DNA from: Acidobacteriota bacterium
Lineage (GTDB): Bacteria > Acidobacteriota > Terriglobia > UBA7540
Direction of reading: 5' to 3'
Length of the DNA: 64,000 nucleotides
Assembly (NCBI GenBank): GCA_004298155.1
Contig: SCRD01000017.1
Location: 1-64,000, forward strand
This document shows positions 44,545 to 60,690 of the stretch, in pieces. Both the position numbers and the translations under genes were made by a program. The notes below the pieces were generated by a model. That model ran no database searches. It was not told the origin of the DNA and worked only from the letters and a program-made list of their open reading frames with translations. The stretch's first letter is position 1. The number at the start of each line of letters is the position of its first letter.

Positions 44545-45014
44545 GCTGCAAACCTATCTGGCCCTTTTACCGTGGGCGCAACGAACCAGAGGGCTGTGAA
44601 GGTTTACACGCTCCTGGTTCTCGGACGAGTCTCCGGAAGGCAATGCGAACCTTCGTTTTCGCCGAAGGGAAGAGATCCAACTGCGGATGATCTTACAACC
44701 CAACAATTTCCAACAGCGCTGCTGAATCCAGCTGGAACCTACGAATTCTTCCGTAACCGGGGCGCAAACTCACCCAAAAGTGAATCCGGAATCGGCAGGA
44801 AGAGTAATGTTCCTGTTGCGCCAGGCCGCCGCTTTCAAACCCAAACGCCTTCATAGACCCGGAAATCTGCAACACCCTCAAATTCTCGTGGCTGAGAGCT
44901 CACGATCGTGCCTGAGATCGAAACTGCGTATTCTACCATGTTTCTGTCGGCTTGTGGCACCCCATCCCTTACTTTATTCAGTCTGCGTGGATTCCCGGAA
45001 ACATGGCGGTTTGG
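44545..45014. other. 470-bp gap without recognisable gene
   Basis: Between ctaB and cox3. Neither strand holds a convincing open frame and no strong hairpin was found. The length is unusual inside a functional row and might hold a decayed gene or the ctaB promoter. Confidence 0.35.
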
Positions 45015-45695
45015 CTACAACTTAATTACCAGCAGAATTAGGAGGTATATCCACAGGCCATCCATAAAATGCCAGTATATGGCTGTGATGTCGACCGCGA
45101 TGCGCTTTCGTGGATTGATTACGATCCGGTGCCTGCGCAAGACCAGATACAACAAGGCGAGAATTCCACCCAGCAGGTGCAATCCATGGGCAGCCGTAAG
45201 GAGGTAGAGGAAAGAGCTACTGGGGTTTGTTGTAATGTATATGCCCTGCGCGGCCAGCTCTCTCCAGGCGACGAACTGACCCCCTATGAAAGTGATCCCA
45301 AGCGCCGTTGTGACGTATAGCCAGGCGGAAAATCGAGCGGGAGCATCCAACTTCAAAGCCCTTCTTGAGAGCTCAAGCGTAAGGCTGCTGGTGACGAGTA
45401 CAAGCGTGTTGAAATAAAGGAGATGGGGGACGGCGGTATGGACCCAGTCGGTTGATTCTACGGCGCGTTCAACCATGACGACCGTCAGCGCCAGGAAGAT
45501 CATAGAAATCGAGGCAATGGCGATCCATATGGCAATCCGGTACGCGCCCAGGGGGAGAGGCGTATTCGAAGGGCCCCGGTTCCTGCCTCTGCCCGAGCCG
45601 CCATTCCCACCACGGCCGTCATTGCCCCTTCCCGGCGGAGGAGAAGAGTGTCCGGGCAGCTTCGGTTCGGCTGGCGTTAAGACTGTCGATCCCAT
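45015..45695 (-). CDS. Cytochrome c oxidase subunit III, with Gly/Arg-rich N-terminus
   Basis: 226 residues from the ATG at 45695. The first ~45 residues are low-complexity Pro/Gly/Arg (SSPPPGRGNDGRGGNGGSGR), followed by five hydrophobic helices of the subunit III family: GAYRIAIWIAIASISMIFLA, LLYFNTLVLVTSSLTLE and LLTAAHGLHLLGGILALLY with the conserved His. It stabilises the haem-copper oxidase core, subunits I and II of which are not in the window. GGGG lies 6 bases upstream. It could instead be a subunit III of a cao/alternative oxidase. Confidence 0.9.
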   Translation of the reverse strand: MGSTVLTPAEPKLPGHSSPPPGRGNDGRGGNGGSGRGRNRGPSNTPLPLGAYRIAIWIAIASISMIFLALTVVMVERAVESTDWVHTAVPHLLYFNTLVLVTSSLTLELSRRALKLDAPARFSAWLYVTTALGITFIGGQFVAWRELAAQGIYITTNPSSSFLYLLTAAHGLHLLGGILALLYLVLRRHRIVINPRKRIAVDITAIYWHFMDGLWIYLLILLVIKL

Positions 45696-46063
45696 ATTAT
45701 TGCCCCGATCCGATAAGGTTAACACGACGGCCCACCGCCCGCCGCAGAAATTTGAAGCGTTGCAGGCTGCGCCAATCTATTTGGTTCAGCCTCATGGGTG
45801 GCAAAATCTCATTACGCAGTCGAACTGGTGTTATCATTCTGCCCTAAGTTCGGCACCTTGGACTTGGCTAGGCGTTAGAGCGCTTCGTGCGCAATTCTCT
45901 TTACCCCCCGCTGCAAAGAACAAGCCATGAGCAGCAGGGCTCCATTCCTACCGGACTTACCGGTACCTATCAAGGGCCGTCTTATCGATCGGAAAATGCA
46001 GCCCGGGTTCGTGCTTTTTAACTTCCGGTTGAGCAGCCCTTAGAATAATAAGGAGCCAACGAA
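45696..46063. other. 368-bp divergent gap
   Basis: Between cox3 (minus) and the M50 protease (plus). It should contain both promoters. Near the right end AAGGAGCCAACGAA forms the protease ribosome site. No RNA gene or repeat recognised. Confidence 0.4.
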
Positions 46064-46969
46064 ATGGCCGGCACGCAGGATCGTTCTCTCCACCTTTTTA
46101 ATTTCAAAGGGATTGATGTATTTCTCCACTGGTCGTGGTTTCTGGTTGCCCTCTTCGAAATCGAGTCTCGATCTGGGATGTATTCATCGATCATCTGGAA
46201 TGTGCTTGAGTATCTGGCGCTGTTCTTGATCGTTATGCTGCACGAATTCGGCCATGCGCTTGCTTGCCGGCAGGTGGGAGGCAAGGCCAATAGAATCCTC
46301 TTGTGGCCTCTTGGCGGGATTGCCTACGTACAGCCTCCGCAACGGCCGGGGGCCACGCTCTGGAGCATCGCCGCAGGCCCCCTGGTGAATGTTATCTTAG
46401 CGCCGATTCTATGGGCATTGATGATGATCTCGTTGTCTGGCTGGCCCAGGTCTGCGTCCGATGCCCACACCTTTCTCTCGACAATTGCCCTCATTAATTG
46501 GGTCCTGCTAGGCTTTAACCTGTTGCCAATCTACCCGCTGGACGGTGGACAAATATTGCGGTCGCTTCTCTGGTTCTGGGTAGGGCGTGCCAGGAGCCTG
46601 ATGGTCGCCTCGGTTATCGGGATGGTGGGTGTGGCGGGACTGTTCTTATACTCTTACGAGACACGCTCTGTTTGGAATGCTACCATTTCTGCTTTTATCC
46701 TAATTTACTGCTGGAGCGGATTGCGAAAGGCCCAGGGGCTCTCCCGAGTTGCCAGAGCGCCTCGGCGCGAGGGATTTGCATGCCCGTCCTGCAAAACCGT
46801 GCCTCCTTTGGGACCGTATTGGCTCTGTTATCGTTGCCGGAAAGCATTTGATACCTTCCAGGGAGAGGCCGTCTGCCCGAGCTGCCAGACGCGTTTCCCC
46901 ACGACATCGTGTCCCGAGTGTGGCTCCGTCAACCCGTTGAGCGCCTGGGCGATTGGTGCTTCCACCTAG
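46064..46969 (+). CDS. M50 site-2-protease-like peptidase with C-terminal zinc ribbons
   Basis: 301 residues. Membrane zinc protease. HEFGHALACR (HExxH, about residues 66-70) lies within helix ALFLIVMLHEFGHAL. The second metal motif is LLPIYPLDGGQIL near residue 153, the LDG form. About six helices in total. From residue 230 the tail contains four Cys knuckles (CPSC, CYRC, CPSC, CPEC), making two zinc ribbons that may recognise substrate or nucleic acid. Family members cut transmembrane regulators. Its ORF ends 106 bp before a strong terminator hairpin. Confidence 0.9.
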   Translation: MAGTQDRSLHLFNFKGIDVFLHWSWFLVALFEIESRSGMYSSIIWNVLEYLALFLIVMLHEFGHALACRQVGGKANRILLWPLGGIAYVQPPQRPGATLWSIAAGPLVNVILAPILWALMMISLSGWPRSASDAHTFLSTIALINWVLLGFNLLPIYPLDGGQILRSLLWFWVGRARSLMVASVIGMVGVAGLFLYSYETRSVWNATISAFILIYCWSGLRKAQGLSRVARAPRREGFACPSCKTVPPLGPYWLCYRCRKAFDTFQGEAVCPSCQTRFPTTSCPECGSVNPLSAWAIGAST

Positions 46970-47074
46970 TGTTCACTGATCGAGCCATTGAGAGCGATGC
47001 TGCAGGGCACCGATTGATGGCTGTGATTAAAGGTGGATTGGGCGCGAGCCCTTTGGAAATCCGCGGGCAGCATT

Positions 47075-47112
47075 GCACTGTCAGAGCCTATCGAGATAGG
47101 CTCTGACAGTGC
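47075..47112 (+). terminator. 18-bp perfect inverted repeat followed by T-run
   Basis: GCACTGTCAGAGCCTATC, then GA, then its exact reverse complement, then TTTT at 47113-47116. Placed 105 bp after the M50 stop. The stem is longer than a usual rho-independent terminator and strong in both directions. Confidence 0.75.
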
Positions 47113-47148
47113 TTTTGGAATCCGTCGATAGAGGGTTCAACGGTTGAA

Positions 47149-47164
47149 TGTTTCACGTGAAACA
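47149..47164. promoter_or_regulatory. parS site 1
   Basis: TGTTTCACGTGAAACA, a perfect match to the chromosomal parS consensus bound by ParB. It lies 127 bp before rsmG. Confidence 0.95.
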
Positions 47165-47290
47165 CGAGCTTACCGCGCCCTTACCTCTCGTCATTCTTCA
47201 GTCCGATCATCGGTTGGGCCTCTGCCGAACAACGGCGCCGCTTTCTAGACAAGTTGCGAGCGTTCCTGACATATTCTAAAATGCACCTTG

Positions 47291-47929
47291 ATGCTTGAGA
47301 GAAACATTGTTAGAGGATGGCTCGCCCCCTTTGATATTTCCCTCTCAGATGAAATGATAGATAAGCTTCTTATCTATCTTGACCTTCTCCTCAAATGGAA
47401 TCAGAAAATGAATCTGACCGCGATTGAGGTTCCGGAGGTGTGTGTCACCAGGCACTTCGGCGAGAGCTTCTTCATTTTGAAGGCAACCCAACCGAGCGGT
47501 AGGCTTTTGGATATTGGGAGTGGAGCCGGATTCCCGGGTCTTGCCATCAGATTGATCGCTCCCAGCCTTGATATCGCCCTCCTCGAGCCGACAGCCAGGA
47601 AGAGAGCTTTTTTGAAAGAGGTTGCAAGGGCTTGTGGAATGGATCGAGTGGGAGTCTTCGATAGCAGACTTGAGAAGTTTATGCAAACTCCGAAGCAACA
47701 ACCATTTGACATCATAACTGTGAGGGCGGTAGGAGGAACGGCATCCCTGGTTCGGAAAGCTACGGTTCTGCTGAGAAATGGGGGCTCTTTTTGCCTCTGG
47801 GCCGGAGGGCAGCAGATTCATCAAATTAGAGATTCCAATCCGGATCTTCACTGGAGAAACCCGATACCAATTCCACTAAGCCATGATAGATTTATTTTGG
47901 CGGGAGTGAAAGTTCACGCCAAATCGTAG
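47291..47929 (+). CDS. rsmG: 16S rRNA (guanine527-N7)-methyltransferase
   Basis: Methylates G527 of 16S rRNA using SAM. 212 residues. WNQKMNLTAI near residue 38 and LLDIGSGAGFPGLAIRL near 74 (SAM-binding GxGxGxP). LLEPTARKRAFLKEVARA and ITVRAVGG complete the GidB profile. A TTG at 47288 is followed directly by the ATG at 47291. Codons are visibly A/T-richer than in neighbouring genes. rsmG next to parA-parB is the classical origin-proximal arrangement; gidA is not here. Confidence 0.96.
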   Translation: MLERNIVRGWLAPFDISLSDEMIDKLLIYLDLLLKWNQKMNLTAIEVPEVCVTRHFGESFFILKATQPSGRLLDIGSGAGFPGLAIRLIAPSLDIALLEPTARKRAFLKEVARACGMDRVGVFDSRLEKFMQTPKQQPFDIITVRAVGGTASLVRKATVLLRNGGSFCLWAGGQQIHQIRDSNPDLHWRNPIPIPLSHDRFILAGVKVHAKS

Positions 47930-47982
47930 CAATCTATTTGCAATCAGATAGATACTTAACCATACCGAGAAACACTAGGCGA

Positions 47983-47998
47983 TGTTTCACGTGAAACA
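47983..47998. promoter_or_regulatory. parS site 2
   Basis: TGTTTCACGTGAAACA, perfect, within the 20-bp palindrome GATGTTTCACGTGAAACATC. Between rsmG and parA, 834 bp from site 1. Likely also near the parA promoter. Confidence 0.95.
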
Positions 47999-48069
47999 TC
48001 GGAATTTCCCTTGTTTTGGAGGTTCAGATTTGATAAGTTTTGCTCCTCCTGTTTCGACCTAAAATAGCC

Positions 48070-48876
48070 ATGGGACGTGTTATCGCAATCGCCAATCAGA
48101 AGGGTGGAGTCGGAAAGACCACGACTACCATCAATCTGGCCGCGGCACTGGCTGCGCAGGACATGTGGACACTTGTGATAGATTGTGACCCCCAAGGGAA
48201 TACAACCAGCGGCTTCGGATTTCCAAAAGACCCCTCGCGACGGTCCCTCTACCATTCGCTGATTCTAGAAGTTCCACTCACAGAGCTGATTCTGCCGGGA
48301 CCCGCTGAGGGTATTCAATTAGTCCCCTCTGATAAAAACCTTGTTGGTGCCAATGTCGAGCTCGTTTCGAGGGCAGGCAGAGAACATATTCTCCGCGAGA
48401 GGCTGGCTCCTATTCGGGATCGCTATAACTACACTCTGCTTGATTGTCCGCCCGCTCTTGATTTGCTTACGCTCAATGCCCTTGTGGCGGCAGATTCGGT
48501 TCTTGTTCCTATTCAATGTGAGTATTTCGCTCTCGAAGGTGTCTCGGAATTGCTTGACACGTTGATACGTATTCGGCGGACTCATAACCCAAAGTTGGCA
48601 GTCGAGGGGATTCTGCTGACCATGTTTGATGAAAGAACGAATTTGTCGCATCAGGTTCGAGACGATCTCAAGGATTTTTTTGGGGACCAAGTCTTTGATA
48701 CCCTGATTCCCAGGAATATCCGCTTGGCGGAGGCCCCTAGCCACGGAAAACCCGTGCTTTTGTATGACCCGGAATGCCGTGGCTCGGAAAGCTATATTAA
48801 ACTTGCAAAAGAGGTTATTAATCATGACCAGAAAGGCGCTGGGGCGAGGATTGAACGCTCTGTTGCGGGAGACTGA
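48070..48876 (+). CDS. parA: Chromosome-partitioning ATPase ParA (Soj)
   Basis: 268 residues. Deviant Walker A ANQKGGVGKTTTTINLAAAL at residues 8-27, with the signature Lys. VIDCDPQGNTTSGFG is switch I and LLDCPPALDLLTLNAL Walker B. ATP-dependent DNA binding drives ParB-parS segregation. The ATG at 48070 (MGRVIAIANQKGG) is chosen; 10 upstream codons are open. The last 53 bases overlap parB, so the two are translationally coupled. Confidence 0.97.
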   Translation: MGRVIAIANQKGGVGKTTTTINLAAALAAQDMWTLVIDCDPQGNTTSGFGFPKDPSRRSLYHSLILEVPLTELILPGPAEGIQLVPSDKNLVGANVELVSRAGREHILRERLAPIRDRYNYTLLDCPPALDLLTLNALVAADSVLVPIQCEYFALEGVSELLDTLIRIRRTHNPKLAVEGILLTMFDERTNLSHQVRDDLKDFFGDQVFDTLIPRNIRLAEAPSHGKPVLLYDPECRGSESYIKLAKEVINHDQKGAGARIERSVAGD

Positions 48877-49675
48877 AACCGTAACGATTTCTGCCGGGCT
48901 TGAGCAAATCCCTCTTAGCCTGATCGATCCCAATCCCTTTCAGCCGCGCACTGTGCTCTCGGTGGAAGGCCTGGACGAGCTTGCCAACTCTATCCGCTCC
49001 AACGGGCTCATCCAACCCATTCTTCTTCGCCAGGCTGGCGAGCGATATCAGTTGGTCGCCGGTGAGCGGCGATGGCGTGCAGCAGGCAAAGCTGGCCTTG
49101 AAAAGGTGCCAGCAATTGTTCGCGAGATTGATGATACTGAAGCACTCGAGCTGGCGCTTGCTGAAAATCTCCTGCGCGAAGCGCTCAACCCTATTGAAAT
49201 TGCGCGAGCTTACGAGCGGTTGCAGCAACAGTTTCGCCTCACTCATGAACAGATTGCCGAACGGCTGGGCGTCAATCGTTCGACGGTAACAAATACTCTC
49301 CGCCTCCTCGGACTCCCACCCATCATACAAACTCTCCTCATAGAGGATAAAATCACAGCGGGCCATGCCCGCGCCCTGTTGCCAATTACATCGCCGGGCG
49401 TTCAAGAGAAGCTGGCGGACAGAGTCATCGAAAAAGGCCTTTCGGTCCGGAACCTGGAGAACCTCGTAGCCTCGCATAAGCCGGCGCAGGAAAAACAGGA
49501 TTCAAAGCCAGCCCCCAAAATTGATCCGAACCTCCGAGCTGCCGTGGTTGAAATGGAGCGCGCTCTCGGAACGCGGGTGAAAGTTGTTGGAAGTGGGCGC
49601 CGCGGAAAAATTGAAATCAGCTATTTCTCTGCGGACGATCTGAGCCGTATTTATGATTATATAATGCGTGTTTGA
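48824..49675 (+). CDS. parB: Chromosome-partitioning protein ParB
   Basis: 283 residues. The N-terminal CTP-binding domain includes SIRSNGLIQPILLR and LVAGERRWRAAGKAG, the conserved GERRxRA box that binds CTP. The central helix-turn-helix THEQIAERLGVNRSTVTNTL near residue 145 recognises parS. The C-terminal dimerisation segment is about residues 225-283. The ATG at 48824 gives MTRKALGRGLNALL, the classical start, preceded by GAGGTTATTAATC. Two parS sites lie within 1.7 kb upstream. Confidence 0.97.
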   Translation: MTRKALGRGLNALLRETETVTISAGLEQIPLSLIDPNPFQPRTVLSVEGLDELANSIRSNGLIQPILLRQAGERYQLVAGERRWRAAGKAGLEKVPAIVREIDDTEALELALAENLLREALNPIEIARAYERLQQQFRLTHEQIAERLGVNRSTVTNTLRLLGLPPIIQTLLIEDKITAGHARALLPITSPGVQEKLADRVIEKGLSVRNLENLVASHKPAQEKQDSKPAPKIDPNLRAAVVEMERALGTRVKVVGSGRRGKIEISYFSADDLSRIYDYIMRV

Positions 49676-49751
49676 TGTCTGTTTCATCGTATGATAATAA
49701 TGTTATTTGATAATCAGATTTCGATAAATAAAAATATACATGGAGGTCCCC
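49676..49751. other. A+T-rich spacer between parB and bactofilin
   Basis: About 80% A+T by hand count over 49680-49740, very unlike the rest of the window. Contains repeated GATAAT/TGATAAT blocks. May be the bactofilin promoter. No DnaA-box consensus (TTATNCACA) found. Confidence 0.5.
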
Positions 49752-50180
49752 ATGGCTTTGAAGCTTGGCAAGCTGTTCCGAGGGCGGTCGGCAAACAAGA
49801 TGATGGATCATGAATTGGTCGGGCTGCTCGAGCCAGGGATTGAGTTCGAAGGCAAAATGACCGTTGCTACCGGGATGGTACGGATCAACACGCATGTCAA
49901 GGGCGAGGTCGATTGTGCCGGGCTCGTCGTTCTTGCAGAACAGGGCGAAGTGGAAGGACTCATTCGATCCAGGTTCGTTAGTATTGCTGGAAAAGTCAAG
50001 GGAACGATCCATGCCTCTGAAAAGGTTGAAATCAATGCAACCGGGATTGTGCTGGGAGACATCCATACGCCTTCTCTGTTTATAATGCCCGGAGGATATT
50101 TTGACGGGCAATGCAAGATGCCTGTTTCCGAGACGGCAAATATTTCCGAGGAAACAATCGAGGCGAAACACAAAGTCTAG
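49752..50180 (+). CDS. Bactofilin
   Basis: 142 residues of the DUF583/bactofilin family, nucleotide-free filament-forming cytoskeletal proteins. The core is a right-handed beta-helix with hydrophobic hexad pattern (VKGEVDCAGLVVLAEQGEVE, VSIAGKVKGTIHASEKVEIN, GIVLGDIHTPSLFIMPGGYF). Short disordered ends flank it. ATG at 49752 has GGAGG 5 bases upstream; an ATG at 49740 overlaps that site. It follows parB by 76 bp. In Myxococcus, bactofilins scaffold ParABS, so a partitioning link is plausible here too. Confidence 0.93.
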   Translation: MALKLGKLFRGRSANKMMDHELVGLLEPGIEFEGKMTVATGMVRINTHVKGEVDCAGLVVLAEQGEVEGLIRSRFVSIAGKVKGTIHASEKVEINATGIVLGDIHTPSLFIMPGGYFDGQCKMPVSETANISEETIEAKHKV

Positions 50181-50378
50181 TGCGTGCGCCCTGGCCACGG
50201 CTGGAAAACAATCTCCCTCCGGCTGATAGATTTTCGGGCGGGCGGCGGTACAGCAGCGGTCAAGGACAACTCGTGATCCCGAACCTCTGTCACCTCTTTC
50301 ATCGCCTGCCTGGATGCTCCGCCCGGCTGCCATCTCATTGAGCGACTTCCTCGCAGTAACCCCCGGGTGGGTTTTGCT

Positions 50379-51011
50379 ATGACCTCGGTTATCATCGGCG
50401 GACATTCCCGCAACATCGGCAAGACTTCGGTCATGGCAGAACTGGTCCGGCGCGTGCGTCCGCCGGATTGGGCTGCTGTGAAGATCACTCAATACGGGCA
50501 CGGCATCTGCTCTCTTGATGGCGAGTCGTGTTCCTGCGATCCGGGCGAGCACGGATTCGTACTCACCGAGGAACGTGAGCGCAAAGGGCGCGGCGACACC
50601 CGGCGTTTTCTCCAGGCGGGGGCCCACCGGGCGCTTTGGTTGCGAGTCCGCCAGGGGCAGCTTCATCGTGCCATCCCCGCGCTTCTGCGTGCCCTGCGCC
50701 GCGAAGAGTGGGTGATGATCGAGAGCAACAGTATTCTGGGCCATATCGATCCTGCGCTCTATCTGTTTGTCCTTGATCCTTTGCAGAACGATTTCAAAGT
50801 CTCCGCCCACAGGTACCTGGAGCGCGCTGACGCACTGGTCACGATCGGAACCGCTCCCCACAGTTCTCCCTGGCCAAGCATCGATGCCGCTCTGCTCAGC
50901 AGCAAGCCGGCATTTAAACTTGCACGGCCCGATGAAGTCAGCGACGACCTTGTGCGATTTGTTCGGCAGAGGCTGGGCCTGGGTGATGCTGCGGGCTTCA
51001 GCAAGGGATGA
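50379..51011 (+). CDS. MobB-like P-loop protein, uncharacterised
   Basis: About 210 residues. N-terminal P-loop IIGGHSRNIGKTSVMAELV resembles MobB, the GTPase of molybdopterin-guanine-dinucleotide synthesis. A Cys-containing segment GICSLDGESCSCDPGEHGFV follows near residue 45. WVMIESNSILGHIDPALYLF near residue 115 and ADALVTIG resemble Walker B and base-recognition blocks. True MobB is shorter and lacks these Cys residues. Convergent with the molybdenum oxidoreductase (stops 54 bp apart). Start: MTSVIIGGH at 50379; a GTG at 50367 is in frame. A function in cofactor delivery is inference. Confidence 0.7.
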   Translation: MTSVIIGGHSRNIGKTSVMAELVRRVRPPDWAAVKITQYGHGICSLDGESCSCDPGEHGFVLTEERERKGRGDTRRFLQAGAHRALWLRVRQGQLHRAIPALLRALRREEWVMIESNSILGHIDPALYLFVLDPLQNDFKVSAHRYLERADALVTIGTAPHSSPWPSIDAALLSSKPAFKLARPDEVSDDLVRFVRQRLGLGDAAGFSKG

Positions 51012-51064
51012 AGCGCCTGCCCCTGGGGGAGAATCCATCGCCCTCGATGCCAGCCTGGCTGTTT

Positions 51065-53293
51065 CTACCTCCGTGATATTTCCACCACCGCGTTGTAGTC
51101 TGGCACCCCGCTCTCATCCAGCCGGTCGGAAGGGATCAACACGTTGCCTTCCGGCCAGTGGACCTGCACGCTTCCAGGCTTAATGCGGTCAATCCTCACC
51201 CGCCCGCGAAACCGGCCATGCTCACTTCGCAGGACCACCGTATCACCCGGTCGCAGCGCCAGCCGTGCGGCGTCCTCCGCAGCCATCAGGATGTCTTCAC
51301 GGCGGGCACCGGTCAGCGGGTCGTTACCGTCGTGCACGATGCTGTTGAATTGCTTCCCACGCCGCGTGCTAAGCACAAACATTCCTTTTGGAACCTGTTC
51401 CTGCGGCAACTCTACCGCGGAAAAATAGCCTTTGCCGCTCGGGGTCCCAAAAATTTCGGCGAACAGGCGCGGACCGCCGTACTGGAAGCTGTCGCCTTTC
51501 TGCTTCAGCCCTCCGATGCCATGATAGGCGGGGCAGACGTGTTCGATTTCAGCCCTGATGTCGCTCGTGTCCTTCCAGGGGAACGCTTCTGCCGCGCCTT
51601 CCGGGTCCATGTGCCGCGCCAGCATCACGGGAATTTCCCACTCGTCGCGCGCCTCGCCCGGGCGCGGACCGGGAATTTCCGGACTGTAGATTACGCGCCG
51701 CTCGGTGCTGGTTTCCGTGCCGCCGCCCCGTTGTTCATAACGGTTGCGCGAGGGCAGCAACACAACGGTTTCTCCGGGATCCACCAGCATGGTGGGATTC
51801 ACAACAATATCCTGATGAACGCGCAGCCGCAGCCGCGCCAGAGCATCGTGGACGCGTTCGGGCTCCGGCATCGTATCCATAAAGTTCCCGCCGCTCTGCC
51901 ATAGCATATCGATTTCACCGCGTTCGGCGCCGAGAATCATCTCTGCCGCGCCCATGCCCTTCCAGGCAGGCGGCCGGAAGCCCCATCGGTCGGAAGAAGC
52001 AAACCGGTCAGCGTTCTCATCGTTCACAGGAAACCCCATCACGTAAGCGGACGGCACGGCGCCCATTTCGGCGCCGCCTTGCACGCCGCTGTGGCCCCGG
52101 ATGGGCATCAGGCCGGTGTGCGGCCGCCCCACGTTGCCACGTGCCAGTTGCAAGTTGACGATGGCGCGCACATTGTCGCTGCCGTAGCGATGATGGGTAA
52201 TACCCATGCTCCAGACAATGACAGCGCTGCGGGCTTTGCCGAAGGCTTCAGCGAACCGGAGCATGTCTGACTGCGTGAGTCCCGAGCCGCGCTCCAGGTC
52301 CTCCCAGTGCAGGCTGCGGGCCTTCTTTTCGAGAGCGCGCCAGCCGGTGGTGCGGTCGTCGATGAAGCCGCGGTCCACCCAGTTGTTCTCGATCAGGTGC
52401 TTAAGCACTCCGTAGAAGAAAGGAATATCGCCGCCTGGCAGCACCTGGAAGAAGTCGTCGGCGATGCGCGTTCCAAACAGCGCGCTTTCTGTAACCGACG
52501 GCACCCAATAGCGCTCCATGCCCGGCTCGAGATATGGATTAACCAGAAAGACTTTCGTGCCCGCTTTCTTGGCGTAGTAGAGATATTTCGTCGCTACGGG
52601 CTGACTGTTGGCGACGTTGGCCCCCACAAAGATCACCAGGTCGCTCCCAATCCAGTCGCTGTAGCTGCAGGTGGTGGCCGCGCAGCCCACCGTGGCGTTC
52701 AGCGCCGAGGTGCTGGGAGCGTGGCAGATGCGCGCGCTGGTGTCGATGTGGTTGGTGCCGATAAAGCGTGCCACTTTCTGGTGGGCGTAATAGGCTTCGT
52801 TGGTAAGGCCGCGGGAAGTAAGGTACCAGGCCAGTCCGCGAGGATCAGTCTGGCGTAGTTTGTTGGCGATCGCGCCGATGGCTTCTTCCCAGCTCACACG
52901 GCGGAAGCCTTTTTCGCCGCGCTGCCGCACCATCGGAACGGCCAGCCGCCCGAGGCGCCGCAAATCCTGCTCACTCTTGTTCTGGAGCTGCCCGGCGTCT
53001 TCCAGCAACCGCCAGTCCATGGCCGGCATGGTGTTAAGCCGCAACAGCCGCAGCCGCACGGCGCAGAGATGGATGCCGCTCATGGTCCAGTCGCGCATTC
53101 CCATAGTGCCCAGCGCGCAGCCGTCGCAGCAGCCGTCGTTAAGGATGCGCCAGGCGTAGCGCAGGCTGTCCCGGTTCTCCCAGATGGCCTCCAGGATGTC
53201 CTTGTAGCCGTTCGGGTGCTGCTGGTTGAGCCCATAAGGCACCAGGCTTACCCATTCTTTCGGATTCCACCCCTTCAAGCGTTCTCGCCCCAT
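51065..53293 (-). CDS. FdhF/YdeP-type molybdopterin oxidoreductase
   Basis: 742 residues. Molybdopterin enzyme of the formate-dehydrogenase-H/YdeP group. An N-terminal Cys cluster DGCCDGCALG with a later LCAVR may hold a [4Fe-4S]. ARICHAPSTSALNATVG near residue 190 places Cys at the metal-ligand position where FdhF has selenocysteine. VIFVGANVANSQPVATKYLY and IRGHSGVQGGAEMG are cofactor-binding. The C-terminal beta-barrel domain (LRPGDTVVLRSEHGRFRGRV) binds the pterin. No signal peptide or FdhD neighbour. Substrate unknown; YdeP affects acid resistance in E. coli. Convergent with the MobB-like gene. Confidence 0.9.
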   Translation of the reverse strand: MGRERLKGWNPKEWVSLVPYGLNQQHPNGYKDILEAIWENRDSLRYAWRILNDGCCDGCALGTMGMRDWTMSGIHLCAVRLRLLRLNTMPAMDWRLLEDAGQLQNKSEQDLRRLGRLAVPMVRQRGEKGFRRVSWEEAIGAIANKLRQTDPRGLAWYLTSRGLTNEAYYAHQKVARFIGTNHIDTSARICHAPSTSALNATVGCAATTCSYSDWIGSDLVIFVGANVANSQPVATKYLYYAKKAGTKVFLVNPYLEPGMERYWVPSVTESALFGTRIADDFFQVLPGGDIPFFYGVLKHLIENNWVDRGFIDDRTTGWRALEKKARSLHWEDLERGSGLTQSDMLRFAEAFGKARSAVIVWSMGITHHRYGSDNVRAIVNLQLARGNVGRPHTGLMPIRGHSGVQGGAEMGAVPSAYVMGFPVNDENADRFASSDRWGFRPPAWKGMGAAEMILGAERGEIDMLWQSGGNFMDTMPEPERVHDALARLRLRVHQDIVVNPTMLVDPGETVVLLPSRNRYEQRGGGTETSTERRVIYSPEIPGPRPGEARDEWEIPVMLARHMDPEGAAEAFPWKDTSDIRAEIEHVCPAYHGIGGLKQKGDSFQYGGPRLFAEIFGTPSGKGYFSAVELPQEQVPKGMFVLSTRRGKQFNSIVHDGNDPLTGARREDILMAAEDAARLALRPGDTVVLRSEHGRFRGRVRIDRIKPGSVQVHWPEGNVLIPSDRLDESGVPDYNAVVEISRR

Positions 53294-53448
53294 GGATTTT
53301 CCCAGGTTAACCGCACATTAAATCATAATTCGTCAGGAAGCGCACCGCCCAGGGCCAGACGGGCGGTTGAATGGACCGATGAGGCCCTGGATGAAGCCCA
53401 GCGGGTCAGCCTGGTTCTGAACTCGAGCCCATTTTTGGCGTTTCTTTA

Positions 53449-53670
53449 TTTTCAACAACATGGCCAGGTCCGTTTTTAGCTTCCCTCCGGTTCGTTTTTT
53501 CCACACCTACGTATTTTCAATAACTTCTCCGCTTCGTTTTCCGGTTCGTTCCGGTTCGTTTTTTGGGCACGATCCTTTGTTTTCAACAACCTCTCCGGTT
53601 CGTTTTTGAAATTTAATGTTTTTTGTCCCACACAATTTTAGTTCCAAAATGCTTTGCCTATGTTTTCAAT
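53449..53670. repeat. Degenerate tandem repeat, period about 65 bp
   Basis: TTTTCAACAAC at 53449, TTTTCAATAAC at 53514, TTTTCAACAAC at 53580 and TTTTCAATGG at 53663. Each of the first three is followed by one or more CTCCGGTTCGTTTTT-like boxes (53485, 53527, 53540-53564, 53593). Spacings 65, 66 and 83 bp. Strongly T-rich in a G+C-rich genome. Confidence 0.7.
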
Positions 53671-54096
53671 GGTTTCCAGCAATATGAATAGTCTAATCAG
53701 CCCGCCTATTTCCGCCCTGGCTTCCATAGGTCAATGCTCCTATGCTGCCTGCTCCTTCGCGAAGCGAATACGTCCATACCGTATGCCAGCGCGGCGCCCC
53801 CAACAATTTGACTTCAGGCGGCGCCCAAGGGCGGACACAAGGAGCGTCCCTGCCCTGGAAACGCCCTGAAATGCATGGCGAAGCTCCGATGATTTTTGCC
53901 GCTCCGAGGAGCAACCTTGTGAGGCTACCATACTAGCCCATGAAAGTCAAGCGGTTCCAGCGCGAAGACAGTGGCCCGAACCTCTCGGCCTTGGGTCCCG
54001 CTCTACACTCCCCCACGGCATCACGTAGCGTCGAGTTCATCTCGCCACATGACGGCATAAAGCCGCCGCTACAGTTTCGTTCTGTGTGGACGAACA

Positions 54097-54125
54097 GCAG
54101 ATTCCTCGTCGCTCTTCAGCTCCTC
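54097..54125 (-). repeat. Dispersed TCATTCC...GAATC element, copy 2
   Basis: On the minus strand GAAGAGCGACGAGGAATCTG follows TTCATTCCGAGGAGC. It lies downstream of xerC. Same family as 5234-5260 and 55253-55357. Confidence 0.5.
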
Positions 54126-54291
54126 GGAATGAAGGAGCGGGGGCCGGGATCGGAATGATGGGGGATGGGAGCGATGGAATGACGCCGGCCGGGCTCGCCA
54201 TGCATGGGAAACAAAAAAGAACCGCGGGCCATAAAGGCCAGCGCTACCCAAGGTCGGCCAGCGCCGCGTGGGATGCCCGGGCCACAACGCG

Positions 54292-55209
54292 TCAGGCTTT
54301 CGGGTGGGTGCGGTCGTAGACATCAATCAGATGCTTGATGGAGACCTGGGTATACCGCTGAGTGGTGGCGAGGCTTTTGTGGCCCAGCATTTCCTGGATA
54401 GCGCGCAAGTCGGCGCCTTCGGCCAGCAGGTGTGAGGCGAAGGCGTGGCGCAGGGAGTGCGGGCTGACTTTCACATTCACATCGGGGCTGTAGGTTAGCA
54501 CGTAGCGTTTGAGAATGCGGTCGATGGACCGCGTCGTGAGCCGCTGGCCGTGTACGTTGAGGAACAGCGCGGCACATCCGGTGCGGGTTTCGCGCAGCAG
54601 CCGCTCGCGGGCGGGCAGGTATGCCTCGAGCGCTCCTTTGGCTTTTGAACCGAAGGGAACAATCCTTTCCTTGTCACCCTTGCCGCGCACCAGGACAAAG
54701 GAGTCGCCGAAGTTGACGCTTCGCAGATCGAGTCCAGCCAGTTCGCTGACGCGCAGGCCGGAGGCATAGAGCATTTCAAGGATGGCGCGATCGCGCAGGA
54801 TCGCTGGCTCGCCGCCCTGGGCCGCCTCGGCCACGCGGTCGAGGAAGTTATTCATCTCCTCCTCGGTCATAATGCGTGGAAGCTTCTTTTCGAGCTTGGG
54901 CGTCGAGACGCTGGCCGCGGGATTTTCAGCAATCAGGCGTTCCCTTGCCAGGAATTTGAAAAACGCCCGCATGGCGGCCAGCTTGCGCGCGATGGAAGCC
55001 TTCTTCTCCTCCATGTGAAACAGGTGAGAGAGAAAGGCACGAATCCTGAGCGCGTTCACCGAGTGCACATCAACGGCAGCGTCCTTTTCCTTTCCGGCCA
55101 GAAAATTGCGGAACTGGACGAGGTCGCTTTGGTAGTTGCGGACCGTGTGCGGGGAAGCGTTTCGCTCGTATTTTAAATACTGGATGTAACGCTCGATCAG
55201 GTCGTCCAT
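54292..55209 (-). CDS. xerC: Tyrosine recombinase XerC
   Basis: 305 residues. Resolves chromosome dimers at dif together with XerD. N-terminal SAM-like DNA-binding domain (about residues 1-85; YIQYLKYERNASPHTVRNY). C-terminal catalytic residues: Arg in YASGLRVSELAGL, Lys in VRGKGDKERIVPF, His-x-x-Arg in SPHSLRHAFASHLL, His in EMLGHKSL, and the Tyr nucleophile in TTQRYTQV. Lies after trmFO on the same strand as in many Firmicutes and acidobacteria; XerC versus XerD is chosen from this context. Confidence 0.95.
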   Translation of the reverse strand: MDDLIERYIQYLKYERNASPHTVRNYQSDLVQFRNFLAGKEKDAAVDVHSVNALRIRAFLSHLFHMEEKKASIARKLAAMRAFFKFLARERLIAENPAASVSTPKLEKKLPRIMTEEEMNNFLDRVAEAAQGGEPAILRDRAILEMLYASGLRVSELAGLDLRSVNFGDSFVLVRGKGDKERIVPFGSKAKGALEAYLPARERLLRETRTGCAALFLNVHGQRLTTRSIDRILKRYVLTYSPDVNVKVSPHSLRHAFASHLLAEGADLRAIQEMLGHKSLATTQRYTQVSIKHLIDVYDRTHPKA

Positions 55210-55252
55210 AAAATTGGCATCACGCTCTTTCGCTCATATTCGCATTACTTCT

Positions 55253-55333
55253 TGTCATCCTGAGCGCACGCGAAGGGTCCCGGCAGTGATTATCAAAGAA
55301 CTACAGCGATTCTTCGCTTCGCTCAGAATGACA
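55253..55333 (-). repeat. Dispersed element, copy 3, as an imperfect inverted pair
   Basis: TGTCATCCTGAGCG...GAAGG (55253-55279) and GATTCTTCGCTTCGCTCAGA ATGACA (55308-55333) are imperfect inverted repeats of about 26 bp around a 28-bp centre. A third part, CTCAGAATGACG, at 55350-55361 overlaps the trmFO stop codon. Between trmFO and xerC. Confidence 0.65.
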
Positions 55334-55351
55334 TGAAAAAACACACCCGGC

Positions 55352-56731
55352 TCAGAATGACGCATCGGCCTTGGCTGGCTCCCAGCGAGGCTCAATCCCG
55401 CTCTCGCTGCCGGCAAGCCAGGGCTGTAAATCCTGGAGGGCCCGCTCGCACTGCCATTCGCGGCGAGCACGGCGGTCACGCGCCACGGGCCTCGGGAGAT
55501 CTTCGATGGGCGGCAGGAGATCGAACGAAATGTTCGCGGGCTGATAATTTTGCGGGCTGGCGTGCGTGATGTAGTGGACCAGCGAGCCGAGGGCCGTCGT
55601 CCGGGGCGGCGGTGCGAAGGTTTCCTGCCGCATGCGGCGGGCCAGCGCCATGCCGGCCAGCAGGCCTGTGGCAATGCACTCGACGTAACCCTCTACGCCT
55701 GACAATTGCCCGGCGATGAAAACTTGCGGGCTCGAGCGAAAACTCAGATCGGGGCCGAGCAGCCGTGGCGCGTTGATGTAGGTGTTGCGGTGGATCTGTC
55801 CGTAGCGGAGAAATTCAGCATTCTCGAGGCCCGGAACCATGCGCAGGATCCGTTTCTGTTCCGGAAATTTCAAGTGATTTTGAAAGCCAACCAGGTTGTA
55901 GCTTGAAAAACGCAGATTTTCCGCGCGGAGCTGTACCAGAGCGTAAGGCCGTTTGCCCGTGCTAGGATCGACAAAACCCACTGGCCGCATGGGGCCGAAG
56001 CGCAATGTGTCAAAGCCGCGCCGCGCCAGCTCTTCGATGGGAAGGCAGGCCTCGAAATATTTTACGTCCTCGAATTCGTGCGCCTTCACCGTTTCCGCGC
56101 TCATCAACGCCTCGTGAAAGGCGCGGTACTCGTTATGCGTCATCGCGCAGTTCAGGTAGTCGTCGCCGCCCTTCCCGTAACGCGAGGCGCGGAAGATGCG
56201 GTCCATGTTCAGCGTGTCGGCATCAACAATGGGGCTGATGGAATCGTAAAACGCAAGGCTTTCGCTCCCGGTCAAGCGCTGGAGGCTTTCAGCGAGCGCA
56301 TCAGAAGTGAGCGGGCCAGTAGCAATAAGTGTGAGGCAGTCGCCAGGGATTTCGGTTACCTCTTCGCGGCGCAAGGCGATGAGCGGATGCGAATCAATAG
56401 CGTGAGTGACGGACGCCGCAAAGCGCTCGCGGTCAACGGCCAGCGCGGACCCGCCTGGAACGGCGCATTCATCGGCCAGACGGAGCAGCAGTGAACCCGC
56501 GCGGCGCATCTCTTCTTTGAGCAGCCAGGAAGCCGCACCAGGGGTGTTCGATTTAAGTGAGTTGCTGCAGACCAGCTCCGCCAGCTGGTCCGTTTTGTGG
56601 GCGGGAGTCGAGCGCCGCGGCCGCATTTCGCACAGCGTGACCGGCACGCCACGACTGGCAAGCTGCCAGGCCGCTTCGCTGCCCGCAAGCCCGCCTCCGG
56701 CAATGAGGACGTGTTCTTTCATCGCTGGCAT
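55352..56731 (-). CDS. trmFO: Folate-dependent tRNA U54 methyltransferase TrmFO
   Basis: Flavoprotein that methylates U54 of tRNA with methylene-THF. 459 residues. N-terminal FAD-binding HVLIAGGGLAGSEAAWQLAS, then VTLCEMRPRRSTPAHKTDQL and LVCSNSLKSN with a conserved Cys. FIAGQLSGVEGYVECIATGL near residue 335 closes the FAD site. The last residues (ADASF) and the TGA are formed by sequence of the dispersed repeat family, so the natural C-terminus may have been replaced. The ATG at 56722 is an equally good start. Followed by xerC; upstream is an SMP-30 lipoprotein. Confidence 0.95.
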   Translation of the reverse strand: MPAMKEHVLIAGGGLAGSEAAWQLASRGVPVTLCEMRPRRSTPAHKTDQLAELVCSNSLKSNTPGAASWLLKEEMRRAGSLLLRLADECAVPGGSALAVDRERFAASVTHAIDSHPLIALRREEVTEIPGDCLTLIATGPLTSDALAESLQRLTGSESLAFYDSISPIVDADTLNMDRIFRASRYGKGGDDYLNCAMTHNEYRAFHEALMSAETVKAHEFEDVKYFEACLPIEELARRGFDTLRFGPMRPVGFVDPSTGKRPYALVQLRAENLRFSSYNLVGFQNHLKFPEQKRILRMVPGLENAEFLRYGQIHRNTYINAPRLLGPDLSFRSSPQVFIAGQLSGVEGYVECIATGLLAGMALARRMRQETFAPPPRTTALGSLVHYITHASPQNYQPANISFDLLPPIEDLPRPVARDRRARREWQCERALQDLQPWLAGSESGIEPRWEPAKADASF

Positions 56732-56960
56732 GATTATAGCAACGCAGGCGGGTATTTGCGGGGCGCGGGTCTATTCTGCCGCCGGCGATGTGTCTTTGCA
56801 TCTTCGACCGGCCGGAAGATTTAACGCAGAGGGAACAGAGAGAGGCCGCAGTGCTGATCAAAGAGCATGCCGTGGAAAAACGCGCGGCCGTCCGTCCTGG
56901 AACTTCTTGACAACCGAGTCCAGCCGTTGCCATCAGCCCACGTTTGTTCTCCAGTTTTTT

Positions 56961-58031
56961 CTACGGCCGAACGCCCGTGATGCTGAGTTTGATGCGATAC
57001 ACGCTCGAGCTCGCGGTCATGTAAAGGGTTTTGCCGTCCGCATCGCCCCAATTGCAATTGGCAGCCCGTTCTGGAAGATTGATGGTGCCGATATGCTTCC
57101 CCTCCGGCGAAATGATCCAGATGCCGCCCGGACCTGCGCCGTAGAGATTTCCCTTTTCATCTACCTTGATGCCGTCCGGGCCGCCCGCGCCCTGGCTGGA
57201 ATCGGCCTTGCAGAAGACCTTGCCGTTGGCCACCATGCCATCGGGCTTCACATCGTAACGCATCCAGGCCATGTTGTCGGGATCGGAAACGGCAATGTAG
57301 AGATACTTTTCATCGGGCGAGAAAGCAATGCCGTTGGGGCGGGTGAGGTCCTTGATCACAAGCTGAAGATGACGATTGTCGGGCGGCGCGCCCGGTTTGT
57401 GGGATGCTGCTCCAGGCAGGCGGAAAACGCCGTTGAACGGCAATTCCTTCAGCGGATCCTTATCGCTCTGGGTGGGCAGGCCGTAAGGCGGATCGGTAAA
57501 GTAGAGTGAGCCGTCAGATTTGTAGACCAGGTCGTTGGGACTGCTCAGCCGCTTGCCCTGATAACGATCACACAGAACGGTCTGCCTGGCGCCGGGTTCG
57601 AGCGATTCCAGGCGATAAACATCGCGCTGCGCATGGCCCGCGACGACGAGGCGGCCGTCCTTGTCGAGCGTCATACCGTTTGAGCCGGACTCCGTGCCTG
57701 GATAGGGCTTGGTTCCCTGGTAGCCGCTGGGATGGAGAAAAACAGAGACGCCCTGGCCTGGGACCCATTTGATGATGCTGTTGTGATGGATCGCGGCAAA
57801 GTAAAGGTCGCCGGTGTGAGTCCAGATGGGGCCCTCGGTCCATTCATAACCCCCGGCGATTTTCTCGACGGTCGCTCCCTGAGGGATGATGGCATCAATC
57901 GCCGGATCGAGACGTGCGATCGAGCCGATTGTTGATGAGGCCGGCTGCTCCGCCTTCTTTGGCGCTTCCTGCTGAGAACAGCCGGTGATTAGACCCAGCA
58001 AACATAATGTGACCACCCAGCGCGTTTTCAT
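56961..58031 (-). CDS. SMP-30/gluconolactonase-like lipoprotein
   Basis: 356 residues. Lipoprotein signal MKTRWVVTLCLLGLITGC with the Cys lipobox near residue 18, then a six-bladed SMP-30/gluconolactonase propeller: EGPIWTHTGDLYFAAIHHN near residue 65, SSPNDLVYKSDGSLYFTDPP and LTRPNGIAFSPDEKYLYIAV with the metal-binding Asn/Asp. Members hydrolyse sugar lactones with Ca or Zn. It interrupts the conserved dprA-topA-trmFO-xerC order. The ATG at 58031 is chosen; 12 upstream codons are open. Confidence 0.9.
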   Translation of the reverse strand: MKTRWVVTLCLLGLITGCSQQEAPKKAEQPASSTIGSIARLDPAIDAIIPQGATVEKIAGGYEWTEGPIWTHTGDLYFAAIHHNSIIKWVPGQGVSVFLHPSGYQGTKPYPGTESGSNGMTLDKDGRLVVAGHAQRDVYRLESLEPGARQTVLCDRYQGKRLSSPNDLVYKSDGSLYFTDPPYGLPTQSDKDPLKELPFNGVFRLPGAASHKPGAPPDNRHLQLVIKDLTRPNGIAFSPDEKYLYIAVSDPDNMAWMRYDVKPDGMVANGKVFCKADSSQGAGGPDGIKVDEKGNLYGAGPGGIWIISPEGKHIGTINLPERAANCNWGDADGKTLYMTASSSVYRIKLSITGVRP

Positions 58032-58197
58032 GCGGGCGATTCTACTGCGGAGGTTGCCGCAAAGCAATTAGAAGTTGCAGGAAAATTGACCCGTCAATTG
58101 CTGGCTTGAAAAAAGGCCCACGGCCTGACAAGCACTGGCCCTGGCGGCCATTGAAGAAGAGTAGACTTAATTGCTGGAATGATCGGGCTGGCGGTGA

Positions 58198-60609
58198 TTA
58201 TTCCACCACACGCTCGTACTTGCAGGTCTCGTTACGGCAGTAGCGCGTGACCTCGCCGGTTTTCTTGTCGTTCTTCTCCAGCAGGATGGGTGAGCCGCAG
58301 TCCGGGCAGGGTTCCGCCACGGGCTTGTCCCACACCGTGAACTTGCAGTCGGGATAGCGCGTGCAGCCGTAAAAGACCTTGCGGCGTTTTGTGCGGCGGA
58401 CCACAATTTCACCGGTGCAGCCTTCCTCGGGGCAGGCGATTCCCAGCGTCTCCCGCTTGACGTATTTGCACGTAGGGTAGTTGCTGCAGGCGATAAATTC
58501 GCCGTAGCGCCCATGCTTTTTCGCCAGGTTGTTGCCGCATTCAGGACACTTCTCGTCCAGTTGCACGTCGCCCACGGCGGTGGCCGCGCCTTCCTTCATC
58601 ACAATCTTCTTCGTGTTGCGGCATTCGGGATATCCGGTGCAGGCCATGAAGTAGCCAAAGCGTCCGCGCTTCAGGGCCATCGGCTTGCCGCATTTTTCGC
58701 ATGTCTGCTCAGGGACCTCGGGAGCCGTGGAAGGCGTTCCATACTTCGCGGCCAGTTCCGGCGGAACGTCACTGGTGTTCTTGCAATCGGGATAGCCGGT
58801 GCAGGCAAGGAACCTGCCGCTGCGCCCCATCCGGATCACCATCGGTTTGCCGCACTTCTCGCATTTGATCTCGGTGGGGATGCCCTCGCCTTTGAGGTCA
58901 ACCATCTCCCGCTCAGCGGCCTTAAGTTCCTTTTTGAACTTCTCATAGAACTCGGCCAGCGCTCCGGTCCAGGCCAGTTTGCCGTCTTCAACTTCATCAA
59001 GCTCTTCTTCCATGCGTGCCGTGTAGGCGACGTCGAAGATGTCGGTAAAACTCTTGACGAGCAGATCATTCACCACCATGCCGAGTTCGGTGGGAAGGAA
59101 ACGTCCCTGAAGTTTCTCCACGTAATCGCGGTTCTGGATGACCGAAAGGATGGTGGCATAAGTTGAAGGACGCCCAATGCCCTTCTCTTCCAGCGCTTTT
59201 ACAAGAGTCGCCTCATTGTAACGCGGCGGCGGCTCCGTAAAGTGCTGTTCAGGCAGCAGGCCAAGCAGGCGCAACACTTCTTCCTTTTCGACCGCCGGGA
59301 GCCGTGATTTTGTCTCATCGTCATTGTCGGCGGCTTTGTCATCCTCTCCCTCTTCATAAACGGCGCGGAAGCCTTTGAACTTTTCTACCGACCCGGTGGC
59401 GCGCAGCAAATAATCGCCGGCGGCAATGTCGATGGTAGTCTGGTCAAAGATGGCCGGGTTCATTTGCGATGCGACAAACCGCTGCCAGATCAGCCGGTAG
59501 AGCTTGAGCTCATCGGCAGAAAGTTGCCCGCGCAGCGAGTCCGGCGGGCGGTCCATGGCGGTAGGGCGGATGGCCTCGTGGGCGTCCTGAGCGCCCTTCT
59601 TGCTCTTGTACCGGATGGCCTGTTCCGGCAGATATTCATCGCCATAAGTCGTTTTGACGTAGGCCCGAGCGGCCTCGAGAGCGCTCTCTGCAACCCGGGT
59701 CGAATCCGTGCGCATGTAAGTGATGAGGCCCACCGAACCTTCACCGAGGTCGAGGCCCTCATAAAGCTTCTGGGCCAGCATCATGGTTTTCTTGGCGGTG
59801 AACCGGAGCTTGCGGACAGCCTCCTGCTGCAGCTTGCTGGTGATGAACGGAGGCACCGGAAACTTGCGCCGCTCGCGCGTTTCAACGGAACCTACCTGGT
59901 ATGTGGCGGTTTCAAGGGCCGCGCGGTGTTTGTCAGCGGCGGCCTGGTCTGGGATTTCCAGTTCCTTGCCCTTGAATTTCAACAGCCGCGCCTCAAATGG
60001 CGGCGGATTCCTGCCCTCGAGTTGGGCGCCAATCGTCCAGTACTCTTCCTTTTTGAAGGCCTGAATCTCCCGCTCGCGTTCGACAATCAGGCGCAGAGCC
60101 ACGGTCTGCACGCGGCCCGCGGAAATCCCGCGTCTCACCTTGTCCCACAACAGCGGGCTCACCTGGTAGCCGACCAGACGGTCCAGGACGCGCCGCGCCT
60201 GCTGCGCATCAACCAGGCGGGTATCGATTTCCTGAGGGTTTTCAAAAGCTTTGCGGATGGCCTCGCGGGTGATTTCATTGAAAAGCACCCGATAGAATTT
60301 TCTCTTCTTCGAGTCCAGCAACTCGCGCAGATGCCAGCAGATCGCCTCGCCTTCGCGGTCAGGGTCGGCAGCAAGGTAGATGGTGTCTGCATCCTTCGCT
60401 GCGGACTTCAGCGACTTGATGGTCTCCTTCTTGCTGGGTATCACTTCATAATTCGGCTTGAAGTTGTTTTTGAGGTCCACGCCCAGTTCCTTCTTGGGAA
60501 GGTCCATGACATGCCCCATCGAGGCTTTAACGGTATACCCGGCACCCAGATACCGGTTAATCGTCTTGGCCTTAGCCGGTGATTCGACGATAACTAGCGA
60601 TTTAGCCAT
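58198..60609 (-). CDS. topA: DNA topoisomerase I
   Basis: 803 residues, type IA. TOPRIM start SLVIVESPAKAKTINRYLG, acidic triad in ADPDREGEAICWHL near 82. The active-site Tyr is in VGLITYMRTDSTRVA near residue 297. From about 575 the tail has five zinc-finger-like units (CEKCGKPM twice, CPECGNNL, CPEEGCTG, CPDCGSPI), more than in E. coli. Relaxes negative supercoils. Follows dprA by 81 bp, as in the dprA-topA-trmFO-xerC cluster. Confidence 0.97.
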   Translation of the reverse strand: MAKSLVIVESPAKAKTINRYLGAGYTVKASMGHVMDLPKKELGVDLKNNFKPNYEVIPSKKETIKSLKSAAKDADTIYLAADPDREGEAICWHLRELLDSKKRKFYRVLFNEITREAIRKAFENPQEIDTRLVDAQQARRVLDRLVGYQVSPLLWDKVRRGISAGRVQTVALRLIVEREREIQAFKKEEYWTIGAQLEGRNPPPFEARLLKFKGKELEIPDQAAADKHRAALETATYQVGSVETRERRKFPVPPFITSKLQQEAVRKLRFTAKKTMMLAQKLYEGLDLGEGSVGLITYMRTDSTRVAESALEAARAYVKTTYGDEYLPEQAIRYKSKKGAQDAHEAIRPTAMDRPPDSLRGQLSADELKLYRLIWQRFVASQMNPAIFDQTTIDIAAGDYLLRATGSVEKFKGFRAVYEEGEDDKAADNDDETKSRLPAVEKEEVLRLLGLLPEQHFTEPPPRYNEATLVKALEEKGIGRPSTYATILSVIQNRDYVEKLQGRFLPTELGMVVNDLLVKSFTDIFDVAYTARMEEELDEVEDGKLAWTGALAEFYEKFKKELKAAEREMVDLKGEGIPTEIKCEKCGKPMVIRMGRSGRFLACTGYPDCKNTSDVPPELAAKYGTPSTAPEVPEQTCEKCGKPMALKRGRFGYFMACTGYPECRNTKKIVMKEGAATAVGDVQLDEKCPECGNNLAKKHGRYGEFIACSNYPTCKYVKRETLGIACPEEGCTGEIVVRRTKRRKVFYGCTRYPDCKFTVWDKPVAEPCPDCGSPILLEKNDKKTGEVTRYCRNETCKYERVVE

Positions 60610-60690
60610 AACTTACCAATCCGTGCCCGGACCAAACCTGCATGGTCCGCTTTTCCTTAGATGCCCGTATCTTGAGCTTGTTACAATCCA

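Follow-up and report, generated by a model that had tools for sequence, protein, structure and literature searches.

In Escherichia coli, MobB has been characterised as an accessory protein that binds GTP and is not essential, and a 2026 study of Methylorubrum reports that it is indispensable for a tungsten formate dehydrogenase (FDH) but not for the molybdenum FDHs, and that it interacts with MoeA1 (PMC13197769). FdhD, a largely helical protein carrying a Rossmann nucleotide motif according to PMC10609526, sulfurates the bis-molybdopterin guanine dinucleotide (bis-MGD) cofactor and binds both GDP and bis-MGD; active FDH does not require its CXXC motif, and some FDH-expressing organisms lack fdhD (PMC10609526, PMC6239281). 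Here we describe a 210-residue P-loop protein encoded in the window, a stretch of 64,000 nucleotides of contig SCRD01000017.1 from an Acidobacteriota bacterium (GCA_004298155.1), and use mobX as a working label for the family of this protein. In the best-supported reading, mobX is probably an accessory P-loop nucleoside triphosphatase (NTPase) that acts late in the molybdenum/tungsten bis-MGD cofactor pathway, and is a distant relative of MobB in which an insertion rich in thiols and imidazoles follows the second strand, at the switch-I position. The computed support comprises a MobB-like profile, a SIMIBI-type model fold, conserved nucleotide-site residues and a branch-wide Cys triad, together with fusion or adjacency to MobA, MoaA, MoaC or bis-MGD enzymes in several lineages and the scarcity of genomes in which mobX and FdhD occur together.

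Comparisons were made across a phylum sample of 297 Acidobacteriota genomes (G labels; loci carry L labels) and across the close relatives, the best 80 of 403 relatives from a scan of genome_contigs (L071-L150). The features of the locus are as follows, in window coordinates.

50379..51011, + strand: mobX, MobB-like P-loop protein, 210 aa (open reading frame (ORF); 53/297 phylum genomes, 403 relatives in genome_contigs)
50397..50429, + strand: P-loop GGHSRNIGKTS, residues 7-17 (G8, G14, K15 and T16 invariant or at least 90% conserved in the 34-row alignment A1)
50499..50552, + strand: Cys/His loop H41-x2-C44-x6-C51-x-C53-x4-H58 (H41, C44, C51 and C53 invariant and H58 at least 90% conserved in 48 rows)
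50595..50624, + strand: DTRRFLQAGA, residues 73-82 (in register with GKDS...AGA of MobB by hhalign of A1 against MobB rows)
50721..50732, + strand: ESNS, residues 115-118, at a Walker-B-like position (E115 invariant in 34 rows)
50796..50798, + strand: K140 of the DFK.SA block (invariant in 34 rows)
51065..53293, - strand: FdhF/YdeP-type molybdopterin oxidoreductase, 742 aa, active-site motif RICHAPST (TIGR01701 and active-site alignment)

A MobB-like family with a Cys/His insertion

Among 34 mobX members, 9 matched PF03205 (MobB) and 11 matched TIGR00176 at E ≤0.01, and the family profile retrieved the MobB structures 4oyh (E 9.4e-4) and 4nkr (E 0.002) from the PDB. Alignment to four MobB sequences with hhalign reached 97% over 61 columns, in which the P-loop, the Lys after the second strand and the D..AGA block are in register and the Cys segment is an insertion, so that both the Walker A and the GKDS...AGA motifs of MobB are found in mobX, with the Cys triad located between two MobB-like motifs. 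Against single E. coli proteins the P value was 9e-5 for MobB, compared with 0.004 for LpxK, 0.006 for HypB and 0.013 for BioD, and the corresponding probabilities were 59% for MobB, 8.5% for LpxK (P-loop only) and 5.9% for HypB. The profile matches, the two structures and the hhalign results together bear out the MobB-type P-loop that had been proposed from the sequence. The original prediction had also set one block apart as unlike MobB; ESNS does differ from the VEG motif of MobB but occupies its place (judged by eye, as the hhalign alignment ends before ESNS), and is thus less alien than was claimed. The window protein also carries a ESNSILGHIDPALYLF block, as read from its sequence. With MobB (PF03205, TIGR00176) the family has in common the P-loop, K-x-T after the second strand, the D..(R)...AGA block, the acidic Walker-B position and a gene beside or fused to MobA, and it differs by the Cys/His insertion, by ESNS for VEG and by the extra DFK.SA block.

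The window protein as single query matched 53/297 phylum genomes, and a 34-row profile matched 55/297, of which two (G101 and G239) hold fragments; full-length mobX is present in 53/297 genomes at 54 loci (two copies in G075). One of the fragments, a truncated mobX-like stretch in G101 (L155:4826-4969; profile E 5.8e-8), has moaC and mobA about 2 kb away, and its 48 residues gave no Pfam match. Searches of Pfam, NCBIfam and PHROGs with the window protein returned no significant match (weak EGF-type and one PHROG match, E 0.3 to 0.7), and none was obtained in the PDB with the single sequence. Viral contigs gave no mobX match, and plasmids gave none with either the window protein or a distant relative. 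No published description of the family was found in the one open-licence library that served as the searched literature.

K15, T16, K35, G81, A82, E115 and K140 are invariant over 34 diverse rows, with D73 and R76 conserved in at least 90%, and none of C44, C51 and C53 varies among the 17 rows of alignment A2 or the 48 rows of A4. The Cys triad, defined as C-x5/6/7-C-x0/1/2-C, is present in 79/80 close relatives, the sole member without it (L079) sitting at a contig start, and in 32/41 phylum loci (40 of the other 53 read, plus the window). Its nine losses map to three parts of a 58-row tree; the deep branches of this tree are long, have weakly supported positions and show other Cys spacings, and the window groups in it with L071, L072, L073, L075, L076, L081 and L097. 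The Cys loop is thus a real, conserved feature of the window's branch, but the absence of the triad from 9/41 phylum loci means that it is not required family-wide, and a family-wide sulfur site was rejected on the same count. The loop is rich in thiols and may bind a metal. A locus titled Verrucomicrobia (L121), with the order lpxL-lpxD-mobX, groups by its mobX with Acidobacteriaceae, and its title or contig may be misplaced.

The AlphaFold2 model of mobX has a mean predicted local distance difference test score of 90.5, with low confidence at the C-terminal end and at residues 41-60, the Cys loop, whose block means are 67 and 69. Its fold matches by Foldseek and VIA are SIMIBI-type NTPases: LpxK, HypB, UreG, MeaB, CTP synthase and cyclic-2,3-diphosphoglycerate synthetase, the last giving the best VIA Z (14.2). 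HypB and UreG align with template modelling (TM) scores of 0.48 to 0.57 and VIA Z of 11.6 to 12.7 (root-mean-square deviation 3.6 to 4.0, 162 to 166 residues aligned). These matches, and a Cys/His loop near the nucleotide site, are what would be expected if mobX were a nickel- or zinc-type metallochaperone NTPase resembling HypB or UreG, with no role in the molybdenum pathway. The UreG/HypB-type fold is indeed seen in the model, but it is common to all SIMIBI proteins. UreG, HypB and MeaB resemble the mobX model in overall fold and in placing Cys and His close to the bound nucleotide; mobX, however, lacks the NKxD guanine-specificity motif on direct reading of the window sequence, HypB has no sequence match to mobX beyond its 5.9% in hhalign, and the Cys spacing of the UreG, HypB and MeaB motifs is different. 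Inspection by eye of the printed neighbourhoods brought up no hydrogenase or urease gene, although no search aimed at such genes was made; LarC was recognised by sequence reading two genes from mobX at L035. We consider the metallochaperone explanation very improbable, the least probable of the alternatives weighed here.

Molybdenum genes and lpxD beside mobX

At the window locus, mobX (start codon ATG, with an alternative GTG possible 12 bases upstream) is convergent with the gene of a molybdenum enzyme that scores 623.6 bits against TIGR01701 (FdhF/YdeP), above the curated cut-off of 582.15, and that matches Pfam Molybdopterin and Molydop_binding. The convergent FdhF/YdeP-type enzyme was thus correctly recognised in the original prediction, and the two stop codons are as close as it had stated, although 53 rather than 54 bases separate them. 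A terminator scan found sites no more numerous than in shuffles and none between the two stops, and an Rfam search over window positions 44000-62000 returned nothing. Imperfect direct repeats around TCCGGTTCGTTTTT lie at 53439-53608, upstream of the molybdenum enzyme gene, and a bactofilin-like gene (by sequence reading) at 49740-50180 stands right behind parA-parB. The closest plasmid relative of the window enzyme, an FdhF/YdeP enzyme of Thermus thermophilus pTT27 (L162; 55.6% identical), is followed by fdhD, whereas its window counterpart is convergent with mobX in a genome without fdhD; type I-E cas genes lie a few kb past fdhD in the Thermus locus.

The window genome holds mobX in a single copy, together with MoaC and MobA; no FdhD was found in it in a PF02634 search, nor MobB at E ≤0.01. 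Five PF00384 matches are present, including the window enzyme, the other four resembling NarG (two), alternative complex III and NuoG on reading of their sequences. With several PF00384 enzymes in the genome, mobX is not assignable to the convergent enzyme alone, and the dedicated cofactor-delivery GTPase of the original prediction, possibly binding Fe-S or a metal, is no more than a candidate role. We envisage mobX as a nucleotide-binding protein, probably dimeric, whose ligand would be GTP, ATP or the GDP moiety of MGD. Its Cys/His loop would bind a soft metal or the cofactor, and nucleotide turnover may help to pass the cofactor from MoeA/MobA to an apo-enzyme; the recipients here would be the enzyme encoded convergently with mobX and, probably, further bis-MGD enzymes of the same cell.

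Genes of this pathway recur beside mobX elsewhere in the family. The window arrangement (parA-parB-bactofilin-mobX with convergent fdhF) is repeated at L071, where mobX is 76% identical to that of the window, and L072 has parAB-bactofilin-mobX with no fdhF within its 16.6 kb. At L081, fdhF lies 3 bp behind mobX on the same strand and its product is 53% identical to the window enzyme, and mobX of G025 is preceded at a distance of about 0.7 kb by an FdhF/YdeP gene, also on the same strand. One member is fused to MobA in a single ORF, mobX then MobA (L041), the fusion in G146 being divergent from an FDH gene; in G071 a MobA match ends 21 bp before mobX, mobX, MoaC and MobA lie within about 3.7 kb in G263 and G145, and moaA overlaps or abuts mobX at L149 and L063 (G259). 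A single run in G213 comprises a molybdenum enzyme, an Fe-S protein, a small protein, a NarJ/TorD-type chaperone and mobX. At L125, mobX is divergent from an FDH gene whose product is 51.7% identical to E. coli FdoG and whose frame is broken at a point where, on our reading of the sequence, selenocysteine would lie. A gene for pterin-4a-carbinolamine dehydratase, a type of enzyme linked to molybdenum cofactor metabolism, overlaps the end of mobX at L076.

Several observations weigh against a role in this pathway. The curated MobB models miss the window protein, which has no match to PF03205 or TIGR00176 at E ≤1 and does not reach the curated cut-off; mobX is accordingly classed as a MobB-like family and not as MobB. 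The best Foldseek E-values are to LpxK and not to MobB, whose structure 4nkr ranks 21, and no MobB chain is among the 50 VIA-align matches listed. MoaC occurs in 52/53 mobX genomes (it was not found in G146), but it is common anyway (256/297 overall, lists compared by eye), and its presence therefore says little. The proximity count does favour a role in the pathway: with MobA and TIGR01701 as the only families considered, 6/53 mobX genomes have a match ≤3 kb from mobX, where 0.284 would be expected (Poisson 6e-7). These families, however, were picked after the window and L041 had been seen, four genomes are left without those two, and related genomes are not independent. Class-wide, molybdenum-related neighbourhoods are found in only 4/80 close relatives, namely an FdhF-type gene in two (L071, L081), FDH in one (L125) and moaA in one (L149), or in five if the pterin dehydratase of L076 is included, and lpxD directly precedes mobX in 62/80, with 3 more cut by a contig start. 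The lpxD-mobX order was also seen in 15 phylum loci (loci without a tblastn mobX match being skipped), and in most Terriglobia relatives it often follows an lpxL-like gene (for example L057:3998-5609). The lpxD neighbour in 62/80 means that the pair of mobX and an FdhF-type enzyme is not general, and that Terriglobia mobX lies mostly in a lipid A neighbourhood.

This neighbourhood raises the alternative that mobX, LpxK-like in fold, serves lipid A synthesis as a P-loop kinase or an accessory factor, its molybdenum neighbours being incidental. LpxK (tetraacyldisaccharide 4'-kinase) has a P-loop fold related to that of mobX and gives the best Foldseek E of all (5.8e-5; VIA Z 13.0), and lpxD lies directly upstream of mobX on the same strand in those 62 relatives. 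Yet the TM-scores of LpxK to the query are 0.43 to 0.49, with HypB, UreG, MeaB and others equal or better, and its sequence similarity is confined to the P-loop: LpxK did not qualify as a homologue, and the single-sequence hhalign comparison gave it far less than MobB. The link to lpxD comes from same-class (Terriglobia) loci and is seen neither at the window nor at the C- and D-type loci read, and a lipid A function would not explain the MobA fusion or the moa neighbours. We therefore judge it improbable. Molybdenum cofactor neighbours do recur across the family, in support of the original prediction, even though the general pairing with an FdhF-type enzyme that it suggested does not hold. 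Within the window's subfamily, homologues do occur with molybdenum enzymes and the Cys residues are conserved, the two points on which that prediction had staked itself.

mobX, FdhD and formate dehydrogenases

Canonical MobB was found over cut-off in 1/53 genomes with mobX (a partial match) and 3/27 without among 80 genomes searched, of which 79 have a MobA match at E ≤1e-10 and none a MobA match over the curated cut-off. The idea that mobX has been proven to replace canonical MobB was rejected, as with MobB in 4/80 genomes the data cannot tell. FdhD is a family unrelated to mobX. PF02634 matches (109, one of them below cut-off) were found in 6/53 genomes with mobX versus 103/244 without it (Fisher 1.4e-5) and, outside the window's class, in 1/29 versus 98/235 (2e-5); three genera have both genes against 11.5 expected, and the four families that hold both states (f22, f25, f40 and f57) include, among the genomes listed, 7 with mobX only, 18 with FdhD only, none with both and 5 with neither (4e-4), all of these P values being optimistic owing to shared ancestry. 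The two proteins, FdhD being mostly in other genomes, possibly do the same job.

Genomes were counted as FDH-positive on the strength of a TIGR01591 match that either exceeded the cut-off (87 genomes) or scored about 600-660 bits and contained a single in-frame TGA (21 genomes). Among these 108 genomes, 24 have mobX only, 55 FdhD only, 6 both and 23 neither. The proposition that each FDH genome has FdhD or mobX seemed to hold in same-class genomes but fails phylum-wide, and the Terriglobales enzyme behind the same-class pattern has RYCQ at its active site. Of the 23 genomes with neither gene, 14 come from family f24 (G027, G053, G065, G106, G115, G133, G142, G150, G166, G174, G190, G236, G244 and G284), in which another maturation route, or a non-FDH enzyme behind the FDH-alpha match over cut-off, is possible. 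In 20 FDH regions read, RYCQ replaces RxCH/RxUH in 9 (8/15 from mobX-only and 1/5 from FdhD-only genomes; L175-L182 and L190), and Cys-His or Sec-His FDHs are present in FdhD-less mobX genomes (L183-L189). The RYCQ gene of L175 encodes an FDH-alpha-like protein of 1009 aa that scores 836 bits, above the TIGR01591 cut-off, and a gene of about 150 aa follows the RYCQ FDH-like gene in the regions printed.

A more specific proposal is that mobX substitutes for FdhD, holding bis-MGD via its nucleotide site and either sulfurating it or protecting and delivering it to FDH/FdhF-type enzymes. We regard this as tentative and, on balance, unlikely, and hold the same view of its corollary that the Cys loop would be a sulfur or metal site where present, making mobX the missing maturation factor in many Acidobacteriota. 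The mutual scarcity of the two genes, the Cys-His and Sec-His enzymes of FdhD-less mobX genomes and a window genome devoid of FdhD all point towards substitution, as do the reported binding of GDP and bis-MGD by FdhD, its dispensable CXXC and the FDH expressers described as lacking fdhD (PMC10609526, PMC6239281). Against this stand the 23/108 FDH-positive genomes with neither gene and the six with both, the RYCQ enzymes, which may need no sulfuration, the inflation of the P values by shared ancestry, and the absence of the Cys triad from 9/41 loci. Standing in for FdhD would be one particular form of a role as accessory NTPase of the bis-MGD pathway; our confidences in the two consequently overlap and need not sum to one.

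mobX is thus a MobB-like family with no prior name that some Acidobacteria carry, sometimes beside molybdenum cofactor genes and mostly where FdhD is missing. The role of MobB itself is uncertain, and a thiol-bearing relative in genomes mostly without canonical MobB would help to define this class of NTPases. Of the new leads, the most interesting is that mobX and FdhD seldom share a genome, which gives a concrete candidate maturation factor that is experimentally approachable.

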